A stretch of 64,000 bases of DNA, taken from assembly GCF_008000815.1 (NCBI RefSeq), contig NZ_CP042806.1, positions 2,108,001-2,172,000 of the forward strand, read 5' to 3'. The stretch is from Terriglobus albidus (lineage in GTDB: Bacteria > Acidobacteriota > Terriglobia > Terriglobales > Acidobacteriaceae). A program made the translations under genes and the position numbers. Positions 6,661 through 43,113 of this stretch are shown piece by piece (position 1 is the first letter of the stretch; each line of letters opens with the position of its first letter). The notes beneath the pieces were generated by a model. It searched no databases and had not been told where the DNA came from. It saw only the letters and a program-made list of their open reading frames with translations.

Positions 6661-7242
6661 TTGCAGGTAATCAGAAAGTCTCTCGCGCTATTCTCACTCG
6701 CTGTCGCGCTGCCCGCGGTACATGCTCAGTCGGTTTATACGGCGAGCCGAAGAGCTGACCTTCAGGTCGGCGGCGGTTATTCGATCGCCAAACCCGACTC
6801 GACCGCGGATAAATTCAAGGGGTTCTACCTCTATTTCGATCTCGACTTGAAGCATCACCTGGGAATTGAAGGTGAGTTTCACAAGGTCAATCAGGACGAC
6901 CCTGGGAAGGAATACGAGAAAACGTATGAGATCGGGCCTCGATACAGCCGGTCATTCAAGGATGGTCTGTTCCGTCCGTACATCAAGGGGATGTATGGAC
7001 GCGGGGTCTACAATTTTCAGCTACCCGGAACTAGTACTGCTTATGCGAACTTGGCCTACAACATCTGGGCTGCCGGCGGTGGTTTGGATGTCCGCGCGAA
7101 TCGCCGGATCAATATTCGCGTGTTCGATTACGAATATCAGGATTGGCCTGGATATCAGCCTCATGGCATCGCGCCACAGGTAATGTCGTTTGGCGTGGCC
7201 TATCACTTCGGTTCCGACAGTCGCTATCCGACGAAACGCTAG
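6661..7242 (+). CDS. Outer-membrane beta-barrel protein (OmpA-like porin fold)
   Basis: The 193-residue protein has a signal peptide (about 1-20, ending VHAQ) and then alternating hydrophobic/aromatic strands typical of an eight-stranded barrel. Strands include YLYFDLDLKHHLGIEGEF near the start and VMSFGVAYHFG at the end. I chose the TTG at 6661 because AGGGAAGG lies 9 bp upstream; other TTG codons at 6625 and 6652 have poor spacing. The stop TAG overlaps the start of a repeat-element end. Function beyond an outer-membrane location cannot be inferred. Confidence 0.72.
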   Translation: MQVIRKSLALFSLAVALPAVHAQSVYTASRRADLQVGGGYSIAKPDSTADKFKGFYLYFDLDLKHHLGIEGEFHKVNQDDPGKEYEKTYEIGPRYSRSFKDGLFRPYIKGMYGRGVYNFQLPGTSTAYANLAYNIWAAGGGLDVRANRRINIRVFDYEYQDWPGYQPHGIAPQVMSFGVAYHFGSDSRYPTKR

Positions 7243-7262
7243 AGCATTTCTCCTAAAGGTGT
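7240..7262 (+). repeat. Solo left end of the second palindromic element type
   Basis: TAGAGCATTTCTCCTAAAGG matches the left end of the element at 23286-23396 but has no matching right end here. Its first three bases are the stop codon of the beta-barrel gene. It is probably a decayed element. Confidence 0.5.
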
Positions 7263-7277
7263 CGATAGAAGAAACTG

Positions 7278-11724: not shown

Positions 11725-11838
11725 TAGAGCATTTCCCTGTAGGCGTACAGTAGGGATTCCGCATCTATGACCGTTTTCCGCAATGAAAACGCTGCCGCAT
11801 TTCTCTTTCGGGATACCCAGCAACAGGGAAATGCTCTA
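11725..11838 (+). mobile_element. Palindromic TA-flanked element, copy 2
   Basis: This is the best-preserved copy: 114 bp with perfect 16-bp terminal inverted repeats, TAGAGCATTTCCCTGT at the left and its exact complement at the right, plus the internal CGTTTTC/GAAAACG hairpin. It sits 22 bp upstream of the histidine kinase start, so it lies in that gene's 5' region. Both termini have TA. Confidence 0.88.
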
Positions 11839-21676: not shown

Positions 21677-23236
21677 CTAGCCTGGCAGATAAAATCGTGC
21701 CGCCAACTCCCTGAACGCGGCAACCTGCTCAAACCGCCACTCGGTCCCGTGTCCAAGCTCACGCGCGAGTAGCTCCGCGACCTTCGGCGCTGACCGCACT
21801 GCAGCCTTCGCATCCAGAAGCAGCGCACGCATTCGTCGAGAGAGAACGTCTTCGACCGTCCTTGCCATCTCTTCGCGAGCGGCGTAGACAACCTCAGCTT
21901 CAATGAAGGGAAGTGCTTCATCCAGCTTTGCACCTAAGGATGCATCCGTGGTGATAAGCGCTTCCACGGCGGCACGGTCAGTCCCATAGCGCGACAGCGC
22001 ATTGTGGGGATCGCCGGCTTTCAAGGGAGCGCCGCGCAAAGGCAGCTTTTCTGTTCTGCACGCTGCGGCAGGCAACATCTCATGTTTGATGGCAAAGTCC
22101 ACCAGATCCTGCGCCATGCGGCGATAGGTGGTCCACTTGCCGCCGGCAATGGTCAACAAGCCTGACGAGGAACGTTCGATATGGTGCTCGCGTGAGAGCT
22201 TTGCGGTCGATGCCCCGGGTCCGGTAATGAGCGGACGCAGACCGGAGAAGACCGAAAGGATATCGGCACGGGTGATGGTGTGCTGCAAGTAAGGATTGAT
22301 GTGGTGCAGGATGTAGTCGATCTCGTCATCCTGATGGCCGGGTTCGACCTCGGGTTTCGGAGCAGCGAGATCCGTGGTCCCGATCACGACCTTGCCCAAC
22401 CACGGAATGGCGAAGATGACACGGCCATCCTCCGTCTTCGGCACCATGATGGCGTAGTCGCGTCCGAGAACTGTCGGTGGCACGACAATGTGTGTGCCGC
22501 GCGAGACGTTCAGCAGCGAAGCGTCAGATGGGTTGTCGAGATGGCGCACCTCATCGGTGAAGATGCCGGTGGCATTGACAACAACCTTTGCGTTTACCTG
22601 GAAGGAGTTGCCGGTCTCTTCATCTCTCAGCACTGCCCCGTTGATCTTGCCGGAGGCCTTTTCGAAGGAGACGCAGCGGACGTAGTTCAACACGGTTGCG
22701 CCATGGTCGACCGCCGTGCGGGCCAGGGCCAGGCAAAAACGCGCGTCATCGAACTGGCCGTCGTAGTAGACGATGGATCCCTTCAGATTCTTCCGTGCAA
22801 TGTTGGGTAGCAACGTCAGGGTCTTGTCATGACCGAAGATGGAGGTCGGCCCCATAGTCGCCTTGCCGCTGAGGACGTCGTAGAGCTTTAACCCGGCGCC
22901 GTAATATGGCAGATCGAACCACCGATACGCGGGTGTGACGAAGGGAAGAGGCTGCACCAGGTGCGGGGCATTGCGCAACATGGCTGCTCGTTCGTGCAGG
23001 GCTTCATAGACCAGAGAGATCTGACCTGAGGCAAGATAGCGAACGCCGCCGTGGACGAGCTTGGTCGCCCGTGAGCTGGTTGCCTGCGCAAAATCGCCGG
23101 CATCGACCAGAGCGGTGCGATAACCGCGGGTAACCGCATCGACGGCGATACCGAGGCCGGTGGCTCCGCCTCCAAGGATGAGTACATCAAATGTGTCGGA
23201 CTGGATCTGTTGCAGAGCCTGTGTGCGTTGGTTCAT
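21677..23236 (-). CDS. glpD: Glycerol-3-phosphate dehydrogenase, FAD-dependent (aerobic type)
   Basis: GlpD oxidises sn-glycerol 3-phosphate to dihydroxyacetone phosphate and passes electrons to the quinone pool at the inner membrane. The 519-residue protein has the FAD-binding Rossmann motif LILGGGATGLGIAVDA (about 19-34). DFAQATSSRATKLVHGGVRYL is the GlpD family signature. The catalytic and FAD domains follow (IFAIPWLGKVVIGTTD), then the C-terminal helical cap. It converges on glpK-glpF. Only 5 bp upstream of its start codon lies a nested pair of palindromic elements, so its promoter must lie within or beyond them. Confidence 0.95.
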   Translation of the reverse strand: MNQRTQALQQIQSDTFDVLILGGGATGLGIAVDAVTRGYRTALVDAGDFAQATSSRATKLVHGGVRYLASGQISLVYEALHERAAMLRNAPHLVQPLPFVTPAYRWFDLPYYGAGLKLYDVLSGKATMGPTSIFGHDKTLTLLPNIARKNLKGSIVYYDGQFDDARFCLALARTAVDHGATVLNYVRCVSFEKASGKINGAVLRDEETGNSFQVNAKVVVNATGIFTDEVRHLDNPSDASLLNVSRGTHIVVPPTVLGRDYAIMVPKTEDGRVIFAIPWLGKVVIGTTDLAAPKPEVEPGHQDDEIDYILHHINPYLQHTITRADILSVFSGLRPLITGPGASTAKLSREHHIERSSSGLLTIAGGKWTTYRRMAQDLVDFAIKHEMLPAAACRTEKLPLRGAPLKAGDPHNALSRYGTDRAAVEALITTDASLGAKLDEALPFIEAEVVYAAREEMARTVEDVLSRRMRALLLDAKAAVRSAPKVAELLARELGHGTEWRFEQVAAFRELAARFYLPG

Positions 23237-23241
23237 GCCGG

Positions 23242-23470
23242 TAAAGCATTTCTCCTGTAGGTGTAGTGCGGGGCTTGTGCATCGAGAGCATTTCTCCTAA
23301 AGCTGTAGATTTGGAAAAATCTGCGAATGCCGTTTTCTTCGCGGAAAACGGCGCAAACAGCCAAAACTCCGTTCTACACCATTAGGAGAAATGCTCCATG
23401 GGCGTTTTCCTCAATGAAAACGCCGCTGCACGCTTCTCCCGGGATACCCAGCAACAGGAGAAATGCTCTA
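23242..23470 (+). mobile_element. Palindromic TA-flanked element, copy 3, split by a second element
   Basis: The outer element has ends TAAAGCATTTCTCCTGT and ACAGGAGAAATGCTCTA (16 of 17 matched). When the inner element (23286-23396) and its flanking dinucleotide are removed, it regains the 114-bp length and internal ATGGGCGTTTTC...GAAAACGCC order of the other copies. It lies 5 bp from the glpD start codon. The clean split shows that the inner unit is an independent insertion. Confidence 0.85.
23286..23396 (+). mobile_element. Nested palindromic element, second subfamily
   Basis: The 111-bp unit has perfect 15-bp inverted ends GAGCATTTCTCCTAA/TTAGGAGAAATGCTC and an internal perfect hairpin GCCGTTTTC-TTCGCG-GAAAACGGC. 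Its internal sequence otherwise differs from the outer family. It interrupts the outer copy exactly where intact copies read CATCTATGGG; the flanks are now GA and CA, which fits a duplicated TA with one change on each side. Confidence 0.85.
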
Positions 23471-23500
23471 GAGGAAATGCTACGACATGAGAATGAAACA

Positions 23501-23534
23501 GAAAACCCACGTCTTTCTCCGGCGTGGGTTTTCT
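23501..23534 (-). terminator. Terminator of the M3 peptidase gene
   Basis: Arms AAAACCCACG and CGTGGGTTTT flank an 11-base loop. On the minus strand the stem is followed by TTTTCTGTTTC, directly after the peptidase stop codon. Confidence 0.8.
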
Positions 23535-23540
23535 TTGTTC

Positions 23541-25571
23541 CTACTGCGCCGGTAGACCCAGTGCGATCCAATGTTTGAGGGCGTCCATGGACTGAGGACG
23601 TCCGAGAAAATCTTTGATCAGATCGTTAGCCGATTTATTGCCACCTGGTTCAAGGACAGTCTTGCGGTACCTCATCGCCGCAGGCCCGCCCAGCAGGTTC
23701 TTGGGATCGAAGGCTGAGAAGAGATCGACAGCGATCACCTTATCGAGCACATAGGTGTAGTAGTTCGACGAGTAGCCGGTCAGGTGCGTGAAGCTGGCAT
23801 ACATGTGGCTGTCATCAAGGAAGACATATGGCATGTGGTCGACAAAGGTCTTCTTGTTTATGGCATCGAGATCGATCTGCTCCGGAGCACGGTCGTGAAC
23901 GGAGAGGGAGAGCTCAGAGTAGCGAAGCTGTCCCTGCACCCACGATCCGCGGGCAAAGCGCCCGGCACGCACCATTTTGTCGATCGTCGTCGAAGGAAGT
24001 ACTTCGCCGGTCTTGTAGTGTTTTGCGAAGGACTGCAGAATTCCAGTGTCCTCGAAGAACTCTTCCAACATCTGCGAAGGAGCTTCGACGAAGTCACGCT
24101 CGGTGCTGACGCCGGCCGTCCCCGCCCACTGACCGTGGCCGCCAAGCACCTCGTGCATCATGTGCCCGAACTCGTGGAAGAAGGTCACCACATCGGAGTA
24201 CTGCAGCAGACCGGGATCACCGTTCTCCGGGCCAGGGAAGTTGCACAGCAGGGCTGCTTCGGGAATCTGCGAACCGGAGCCCGGAATTACGCCGGACTCT
24301 GAGAACCACTTGTCCTTGCCCTCACGCGGATGCATATCCAGATAGATACGGCCGGCCAGCTTGCCCTGGTCGTAGATGTCATATACCGTGACGGTCGGGT
24401 TCCAGATAGGAGCTTTGCTGGGGCGGAACTCGATATGGAACAGCTTGCCTGCGGTGGCCAACACGCCTTTCTCCACCTCGGGATAAGGGAAGTAGGGACG
24501 TACCGACTGCGAGTCGAAGTCATACTTCGCGCGGCGGTACTGTTCGCTCCAGTAGCTGGAGTCGCTGGCGGCGAGCGGCAGGGCAGAAGGGTCCTTCTCC
24601 TTGACGAAGGCCTCCAGCAGCGCGAACTCCTTGGCCGCGGAGGGACGGGAGGCCTCGTCGACCTCCTTCAGGAAAGCGCGCAGCTTGTCGGCGGAGCCGA
24701 TCATCATGTCGGCGGTGGCGAGATCCGCCCAGGTCTTATAGCCGAGCGTGGTTGCCATCTCCTGCCGGGTCTTCAGCAGATCGAGCAGGACGGCCTTGTT
24801 CCCCGGGAAAGCGCGGTTATTGTAGGCAAGGTACATATCCCGCCGCAGGCGCGGGCTCTTCGCATAGGTGACGACCGGCAACATATCAGGCTGGTCAGTG
24901 GTAAGTGTGATGGTCCCATCGGCAGCGGGTTTGTGCTTCTCGATGTAATCCGCGGGGAGTCCATCGAGATCGGCGGGATCCTTCACGACGACCTTGCGGA
25001 CATCGTCCTGCACCGTGCGGGAGAAGTGCAGCGACTGCTCGGTGATCTGGTCTGAGAGTTTGCGGACTTTCTCGCGGATCTCGGCGTCCTTATCCACACC
25101 GGCAAGGCGGTATTCCAGCAGCGTGCGGTCCAGGTAGTATCTGGTCGCGGCGTCCGCCTTTGTCTTATCCACGGCTACCAGGGCGTGGTAGACATCCTGG
25201 TTGAGCTGCAGGGCGGTGCCTTCAGCGGAGATGTTCTGCAACAGCGCCTGCGCTTTGTCGCGCACGTCTTTGTTGTCGTGCAGGCCGAACATCAGGTAGT
25301 CCTGGTTGCCGGCGATGTTCAGGTGAAACTGGGCGCGGTCGAAGGGTTTGAGCGTGTTCTCGATCGTACGGGCTCCCTTGACCGCAAGGATCTCTGCGAC
25401 GGCCTTCTTCTCTTCCGCGATGTGATAGTTCACCCAGTTCTCGAGATCGGCAGGCGAGGTCATGCCGACCCAGGCGTGAAGGGGATCGGAGGGCGGCTTC
25501 GGCGCGGCTGTTTGGGCAACAGTGGGGACAGCAAAACTCATAAGCAGGGCAGTGCTCCGTATCAGGTTCAC
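23541..25571 (-). CDS. M3-family metallopeptidase (oligopeptidase), secreted
   Basis: The 676-residue protein has a signal peptide (about 1-20) and a long helical M3 body. The zinc motif is FHEFGHMMHEVLGG, HEFGH starting at His 466, followed at the usual distance by a glutamate in the SQMLEEFFED segment. M3 enzymes (Dcp/oligopeptidase A/thimet oligopeptidase) cleave short peptides. The leader suggests periplasmic peptide turnover. It is divergent from the ribbon-helix-helix gene, with 106 bp between starts. The exact specificity (dipeptidyl carboxypeptidase or oligopeptidase) cannot be told. Confidence 0.9.
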   Translation of the reverse strand: MNLIRSTALLMSFAVPTVAQTAAPKPPSDPLHAWVGMTSPADLENWVNYHIAEEKKAVAEILAVKGARTIENTLKPFDRAQFHLNIAGNQDYLMFGLHDNKDVRDKAQALLQNISAEGTALQLNQDVYHALVAVDKTKADAATRYYLDRTLLEYRLAGVDKDAEIREKVRKLSDQITEQSLHFSRTVQDDVRKVVVKDPADLDGLPADYIEKHKPAADGTITLTTDQPDMLPVVTYAKSPRLRRDMYLAYNNRAFPGNKAVLLDLLKTRQEMATTLGYKTWADLATADMMIGSADKLRAFLKEVDEASRPSAAKEFALLEAFVKEKDPSALPLAASDSSYWSEQYRRAKYDFDSQSVRPYFPYPEVEKGVLATAGKLFHIEFRPSKAPIWNPTVTVYDIYDQGKLAGRIYLDMHPREGKDKWFSESGVIPGSGSQIPEAALLCNFPGPENGDPGLLQYSDVVTFFHEFGHMMHEVLGGHGQWAGTAGVSTERDFVEAPSQMLEEFFEDTGILQSFAKHYKTGEVLPSTTIDKMVRAGRFARGSWVQGQLRYSELSLSVHDRAPEQIDLDAINKKTFVDHMPYVFLDDSHMYASFTHLTGYSSNYYTYVLDKVIAVDLFSAFDPKNLLGGPAAMRYRKTVLEPGGNKSANDLIKDFLGRPQSMDALKHWIALGLPAQ

Positions 25572-30851: not shown

Positions 30852-30957
30852 GAGAGCAGGTTGCTGGTATCCCGGAAAGGTCTGCAGCGGCGTTTTCATT
30901 GCCGGAAACTCCCATAAGTGCGGAAGCCTACATCACACCTACAGGAAAAATGCTCTA
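30852..30957 (-). mobile_element. Palindromic element, copy 4 (reverse orientation)
   Basis: Read on the minus strand it follows the family from TAGAGCATTTTTCCTGTAGGTGT through the GTTTCC...GAAAACGCC hairpin to GGGATACCAGCAAC. The distal terminal repeat is shortened to CTGCTCTC by a small deletion. Its TAG at 30957-30955 is the stop codon of pgeF. Confidence 0.78.
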
Positions 30958-33408: not shown

Positions 33409-33523
33409 TGGAGCATTTTCCCTGTAGGTCCGGAGTAGGGCTTCCGCATCCATGGGCGTTTTCCGCAATGAAAACGCCGCTGCACGCCTCTTCCGGAATA
33501 CCCAGCAACAGGGAAATGCTCTA
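33409..33523 (+). mobile_element. Palindromic TA-flanked element, copy 5
   Basis: The 115-bp copy has ends TGGAGCATTTTCCCTGT and ACAGGGAAATGCTCTA and a perfect internal GGGCGTTTTCCGCAATGAAAACGCC-like hairpin. It lies 15 bp upstream of the activator start codon and within the divergent region shared with aroDE, so it could affect both promoters. Confidence 0.85.
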
Positions 33524-43006: not shown

Positions 43007-43113
43007 AAAATTTTCCGGAAGGTGTAGCGTTGGGCTTGCGGCATCTATGAACGTTTTCCGCAATGAAAACGCCGCTCCGCTCTTCTACCCTAGCAACAGG
43101 GAAAAATGCTTTA
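43004..43113 (+). mobile_element. Palindromic TA-flanked element, copy 6
   Basis: The 110-bp copy has a diverged left end (TAGAAAATTTTCCGG) and right end GGGAAAAATGCTTTA. It keeps the CATCTATGAACGTTTTCCGCAATGAAAACGCC core. Its left TAG is the stop codon of the upstream gene. The right flank TAAGCAG would restore a TAA stop if the element were removed. Confidence 0.78.

Follow-up and report, generated by a model that had tools for sequence, protein, structure and literature searches.

Nested palindromic repeats of Terriglobus albidus are best read as IS630-related miniature elements

Introduction

The closest described counterpart of the elements reported here is RUP, a repeat of 107 bp and 108 copies, which targets TA and has ends like those of an IS630 element, according to a 2007 review (PMC2229807). 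The same text describes Correia elements (~107 and 155 bp) and ERIC (127 bp), which have TA termini, target duplication and stable stem-loops. Here we report on two nested palindromic elements in a 64,000-nucleotide stretch of the Terriglobus albidus genome (the window; contig NZ_CP042806.1, positions 2,108,001 to 2,172,000): an outer element at 23242-23470 of the window and an inner element that interrupts it. Both would be miniature inverted-repeat transposable elements (MITEs), which are short, non-autonomous and bounded by long terminal inverted repeats; we put at roughly 0.9 the probability of this reading, in which an IS630-type transposase of the Tc1/mariner group moves them in trans and the inner inserted into an earlier outer element.

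The best reading of these elements is as MITEs related to IS630, in the way that RUP is related to IS630-Spn1, because IS630-type elements of ~1.0 kb, mostly acidobacterial, carry closely similar ends. Short size, a TA target and IS630-like ends are common to RUP, as described there (PMC2229807), and the present elements; however, RUP belongs to another phylum, and here the closely matching IS630 elements were found in relatives and not in the same genomes (the two are likened by description, not by sequence). Correia/NEMIS and ERIC, compared by description only, resemble our elements in size, TA termini, target duplication and stem-loops. ISY100 of the IS630 family moves with 30 bp of each end, 24-bp repeats being probably the minimum, and 34 of 39 insertions were into TA with TA duplication (PMC2170065); it is similar in its duplicated TA target and in the sufficiency of short ends but, unlike our elements, is autonomous (again compared by description, not by end sequence).

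Among bacterial repeats, the 2007 review knew a link of this sort with an insertion sequence (IS) only for RUP (PMC2229807), and a 2011 paper extends the list to BOX, paired with ISSpn2, and to a cyanobacterial repeat paired with ISNpu3-like elements (PMC3049150). In the accessible parts of a mainly open literature (including PMC5900883, PMC10969869, PMC8841776 and PMC3174227), we found no prior description from Acidobacteria or Terriglobus. Insertion of one MITE into another has already been reported in pneumococcus. The Bru-RS palindromes of Brucella are reportedly about 100 bp long with a TAGAGCATTTTC-like end, which is a lead only, made with no sequence comparison.

Results

The outer element is palindromic, about 116 bp long, and has the ends TAAAGCATTTCTCC...GGAGAAATGCTCTA; it is split at CATC-TA-TGGG by a 111-bp relative of family 2, the terminal 15 bases of which (GAGCATTTCTCCTAA) are perfectly inverted. 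The nested locus consists of the following parts:

23242 to 23470, + strand: outer element, interrupted; family 1, TTTCTCC-ended variety, with TA at both ends and intact orthologs in genomes G008 and G015
23242 to 23285, + strand: left part of the outer element; 23243-23285 correspond to model positions 2-44; ends CATC-GA
23286 to 23396, + strand: inner element of family 2, 111 bp, with a 15-bp perfect terminal inversion
23329 to 23352, + strand: central hairpin of the inner element, GCCGTTTTC/GAAAACGGC
23397 to 23470, + strand: right part of the outer element, which has a central hairpin of its own at 23402-23423, GCGTTTTC/GAAAACGC

The initial annotation had given the inner unit its own perfect 15-bp inverted ends and its own hairpin, and had placed it at CATC-TA-TGGG between the flanks GA and CA; all of these were found as described. 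With sizes of 111-118 bp and long terminal inversions, both units are of the kind expected for bacterial MITEs (<~200 bp). Folded as single-stranded DNA, the inner unit reaches −28.9 kcal/mol (z −7.04), a value equalled by 0 of 200 shuffles.

We located the orthologous place in three genomes of the same genus, namely G008, G015 and G017. G008 and G015 carry the outer element intact, with CATC-TA-TGGG once and a single TA, which is the empty site of the inner element; the window reads GA (23284-23285) and CA (23397-23398) at this place, each one substitution from a duplicated TA. In G017 the outer element is absent, and the locus reads GTTCATGCCAG-TA-GCG where the window reads GTTCATGCCGG-TA-element; this empty site is anchored on its left flank only, as the sequence right of the TA has diverged. 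At this locus G008 and G015 have the outer element alone, G017 has neither element and the window has both, so that the order was most simply empty site, outer element, and outer element with inner element. On this simplest account the outer element arrived once G017 had split off, and the window lineage later acquired the inner element at a TA within the outer one. Insertion is at a TA, with TA ending on both sides; the TA target expected of an IS630/Tc1-mariner MITE was seen in occupied and empty sites and in a second nest of the window's own genome, which is flanked by TA on both sides, and target duplication together with occupied and empty sites is as in MITEs generally.

The initial annotation had also stated that removal of 23286-23396 makes the outer copy collinear with five other copies, and it does align with five in the window, of which that at 30860 is partial:

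1868 to 1980, + strand: outer-family copy; the orthologous place in G008 is without a copy
11725 to 11838, + strand: outer-family copy, un-nested here and nested in G008 at the same internal site (C28:625934-626163)
30860 to 30957, − strand: outer-family copy, partial; absent from G008, where the site is rearranged
33411 to 33523, + strand: outer-family copy, common to G008
43009 to 43112, + strand: outer-family copy, common to G008

The motif AGCATTTCTCCT, with at most one mismatch, has 7 matches in the window vs. 0.29 expected, and 7 was reached in 0 of 100 shuffles. Genome-wide, TAGAGCATTTCTCC with at most one mismatch gave 94 forward and 86 reverse matches (1 + 1 for the reversed control). 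A first look yielded 327 outer-family candidates in the 6,405,582-base genome, 40 of which were scored, and the outer model made 20 matches in 462 kb of this genome, two being the halves of the nested copy. A DNA search with the inner family returned 68 matches, with partial and reverse-strand ones counted, of which 25 are strong (E about 1e-16 or better). Both the outer and the inner family have many dispersed copies, as MITEs do. The two look like sister subfamilies because their consensus sequences align from end to end in opposite orientation (78 of 119 positions); a central CGTTTTC/GAAAACG hairpin is common to both. Alignment A3 leaves out both window rows and includes L058 and L060.

Several copies depart from these forms. 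One variety of the inner family (L044, L049 and L053 in the own genome; C28:570987-571139 in G008) has, near its right third, an extra hairpin of ~37 bp, which reads CCCCAGCGAA...TTCGCTGGGG or a variant of this. Outer copies stand head to tail with a 114-bp period in L166 (G008:C42:15898-16237), which a single TA insertion does not explain, and a second such pair is known by its coordinates only (G008:C55:219989-220212). At 7241-7269 of the window lies a partnerless inner-type end (TAGAGCATTTCTCCTAAAGGTGT), perhaps a deletion remnant; the same place in G008 reads CGCTAGAGTGTATCG.

Further nests were found in the genomes that carry the elements. The reverse case lies 11.5 kb away: the G008 nest at C28:625934-626163 has the flanks GA and GA, and its ortholog at 11725-11838 of the window is un-nested and reads TA. 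The second nest of the own genome (G000:C1:1346550) has exact TA..TA flanks, and its host is an outer copy of the TTTTCCC variety. A scan for CATC-NA-GAGCA junctions in the four carrier genomes (G000, which is the window's own, G008, G012 and G015; the last two are fragmented drafts, in which nests may be missed) gave 87 matches, 11 of them without mismatch; a profile check of 16, including all 11 exact ones, returned the three known nests and none further, and the remaining 71, each with one mismatch, lie outside that check. In G012:C289 the inner element occupies another internal TA of the outer element, and the two abut at a common terminal TA in G012:C330 and G015:C294 (near variant in G008:C20 and G012:C565).

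The inner copy of the window is 95.3% identical to a free copy vs. 92.7% and 85.6% to the other two copies nested at the same site, and each of those is also nearest to a free copy (33 copies sampled). Since nested inner copies are nearer to free copies than to one another, the nests look independent, with no travelling unit; the outer hosts belong to different varieties. All three nests, in two genomes, agree in the internal site used and in how the inner element is oriented relative to the outer one. Because these are three apparently independent insertions at the same internal TA in one orientation, it is conceivable, if rather doubtful, that the elements favour their own kind as a landing site; the transposase or the fold would then direct insertion beside the outer hairpin. 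The same-site preference is non-significant: three of four clear internal insertions are at one of five internal TAs, for which the chance for any one TA is ~0.14 if all are equal (the rearranged inner/outer junction G012:C654, L156, is left out of this count).

These loci differ between relatives, as a comparison of 462 kb from the own genome and 495 kb from G008 showed. Among 21 own loci, 9 are common to G008, 3 are absent from it and 9 are without a usable flank pair; among 38 loci of G008, 9 are common, 12 are absent from the own genome and 17 are without a pair. We viewed 14 of the 15 absent sites base by base, and 8 read a clear single TA and one nearly so. The initial annotation had taken the nesting to argue for active transposition: insertion since these species diverged is what the evidence establishes, aligned window blocks being 88-92% identical to G008, and present activity lies outside it.

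Both families are abundant in the four carrier genomes and few or absent in the others searched (61 genomes for the outer and 19 for the inner model). The outer model has 60 to 67 matches in each carrier, a count set by the scoring limit of 60 candidates, and weaker matches in G010 (three), G017 (one) and G035 (one); it has no match in 54 of 61 genomes (E 0.001, stricter filters). The inner model has 69 to 76 matches in each carrier, including cross-matches to outer copies and matches on both strands, two in G007, and none in 14 of 19 genomes. By eye, the weak match in G035 (L123) looks like a CRISPR-type array and was rejected as a relative. Two divergent relatives, L098 (G017) and L104 (G010), each combine TAGACC at one of their ends with a similar core of the GCGTTTTC...GAAAACGC type; they suggest an older family, the core of which would be conserved beyond its ends. 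A search for viral contigs carrying both exact TTTTC-type ends gave 0 matches.

We compared the ends of the elements with those of IS630-type elements. The DDE_3 profile (PF13358) matched in 55 of 150 genomes of the window's family, and the 73 loci examined for ends are part only of the matches from that search. In the own genome the profile has two matches (L091/L092), both to a single IS630 type; its ends do not match those of the elements, and it was rejected as the source for that reason. GAGCA-type, TA-flanked elements of ~1.0 kb are L175, L180, L181 and L199, together with L167 in the carrier G015; the transposase is split over two frames in all five, and L175 comes from G155, a genome of the same family as the window organism. 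When named genomes were scanned for relatives of L175/L181, 44 loci were obtained, among them L239 and L248; not all have a clear terminal repeat, and 21 of the 44 are titled Acidobacteria or bear the name of a genus or order belonging there.

For the end comparison, 115 IS630-type loci (L180 and L199 not among them) yielded 31 with a motif-recognised transposase, 22 of which have a terminal repeat of at least 17/25. The nine rows closest to the MITE ends are seven different elements, two being present twice, and agree with the MITE end at 18 to 21 of 25 positions at both ends (21 and 21 for L248; 21 and 20 for L239; 20 for L175 and L181); shuffled ends average about 8 of 25, with maxima of 14 to 18. 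L172, L174 and L210 have clearly different IS630 ends (6-13 of 25), and row L251 (5-7), the register of which was misread, cannot serve as a control. A tree built from 26 transposase stretches places every row that has GAGC at both ends, except L167, within one 17-row group; the support of this group, 81/90, is below the program's starred threshold, and the group also takes in rows without a recognised repeat. The ends resemble those of an IS630-family IS, as expected of IS630 MITEs, and the TA is duplicated; we infer mobilisation in trans by this IS630 group. An IS630-type transposase acting in trans would recognise about 22-25 terminal bases (TA-GAGCATTTYYCC...GTGTA).

Beside the nested locus, the outer element stops 5 bases ahead of the ATG of a minus-strand open reading frame (ORF) at 21677-23236 (seen in 23234-23256), the product of which appears by eye to be FAD-dependent and glycerol-3-phosphate dehydrogenase-like. 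On the strand of this ORF the element end reads AGGAG, 15 bases ahead of the ATG, a possible but distant ribosome site. At 23500-23534, between two genes, lies a terminator-like perfect 12-bp inverted repeat (AGAAAACCCACG/CGTGGGTTTTCT).

Discussion

Our analysis supports the proposal of the initial annotation that these are non-autonomous, TA-duplicating elements of the IS630/Tc1-mariner style with at least two subfamilies: empty sites with a single TA and IS630 elements with similar ends both speak for it, and the comparison of occupied and empty sites in close relatives found the intact outer element with its single TA in G008 and G015. A transposase gene with the same ends, which the annotation had suggested seeking, was found in part, as closely similar ends occur in other, mostly acidobacterial genomes, and in the carriers only the more weakly matching L167 was found.

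Several observations weigh against the IS630-related MITE reading. We found no IS630 with closely matching ends in G000, G008 or G012 with the DDE_3 profile; L169 of G008 is a truncated IS630 fragment at a contig end, nearest to the other IS630 type, and the one IS630 in G015 (L167) has ends of only 14/25. End similarity is graded, nine rows having 14-16 of 25 at one or both ends and thereby standing between the close group and L172, L174 and L210. Inside the ends there is no convincing match between MITEs and IS630 elements, with weak matches in L248 and L254 only, and therefore descent of the MITEs by internal deletion is not demonstrated. The nested flanks are GA/CA (window) and GA/GA (G008) rather than TA/TA, and 5 of the 14 absent sites viewed are rearranged.

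A TA duplication is not enough to identify the enzyme, and, given that the carrier genomes yielded no IS630 with closely matching ends, another TA-using transposase, such as one of the IS5 group, could be the mobiliser. We consider this very unlikely: the match of the ends to one IS630 group is above shuffled controls, and PF13340 (IS5 group), the one transposase profile tried besides DDE_3, is unmatched in the own genome (G000), the one genome in which it was tried, on which ground we rejected the IS5 group. It is also unlikely, if a little less so, that a regulatory or terminator-like role as RNA is what preserves the palindromes, their spread being incidental. Strong folding, a GTTTTC..GAAAAC hairpin core in both families and their divergent relatives, and an outer element that ends five bases ahead of the start codon of ORF 21677-23236 would all fit such a function; however, copies differ between close relatives and carry target duplications, and no Rfam family reaches its gathering score within 22900-23800. 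RNA function and mobility do not exclude each other.

The nest might instead spread whole as a composite unit, either transposing by its outer ends or recombining by way of other outer copies, as three nests in two genomes with one internal site and one inner orientation could be taken to suggest. This is the case that the initial annotation named as refuting, and it was looked for and not seen: among the copies compared, the inner copies of the nests are closest to free copies and not to each other, their outer copies are of different varieties, and both nests with orthologs compared (window and G008) have an un-nested ortholog. The composite unit is largely refuted, and we regard it as highly improbable.

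In conclusion, insertion of IS630-related MITEs, probably served in trans by an IS630-type transposase, accounts for a locus at which one MITE entered another with base precision and the staged intermediates persist in living relatives. The mobility is real, fairly recent and of an ordinary kind, with no new mechanism. By way of the ends, our work ties the palindromic repeats that abound in this lineage to an IS630 group, and it aids the annotation of many repeats.
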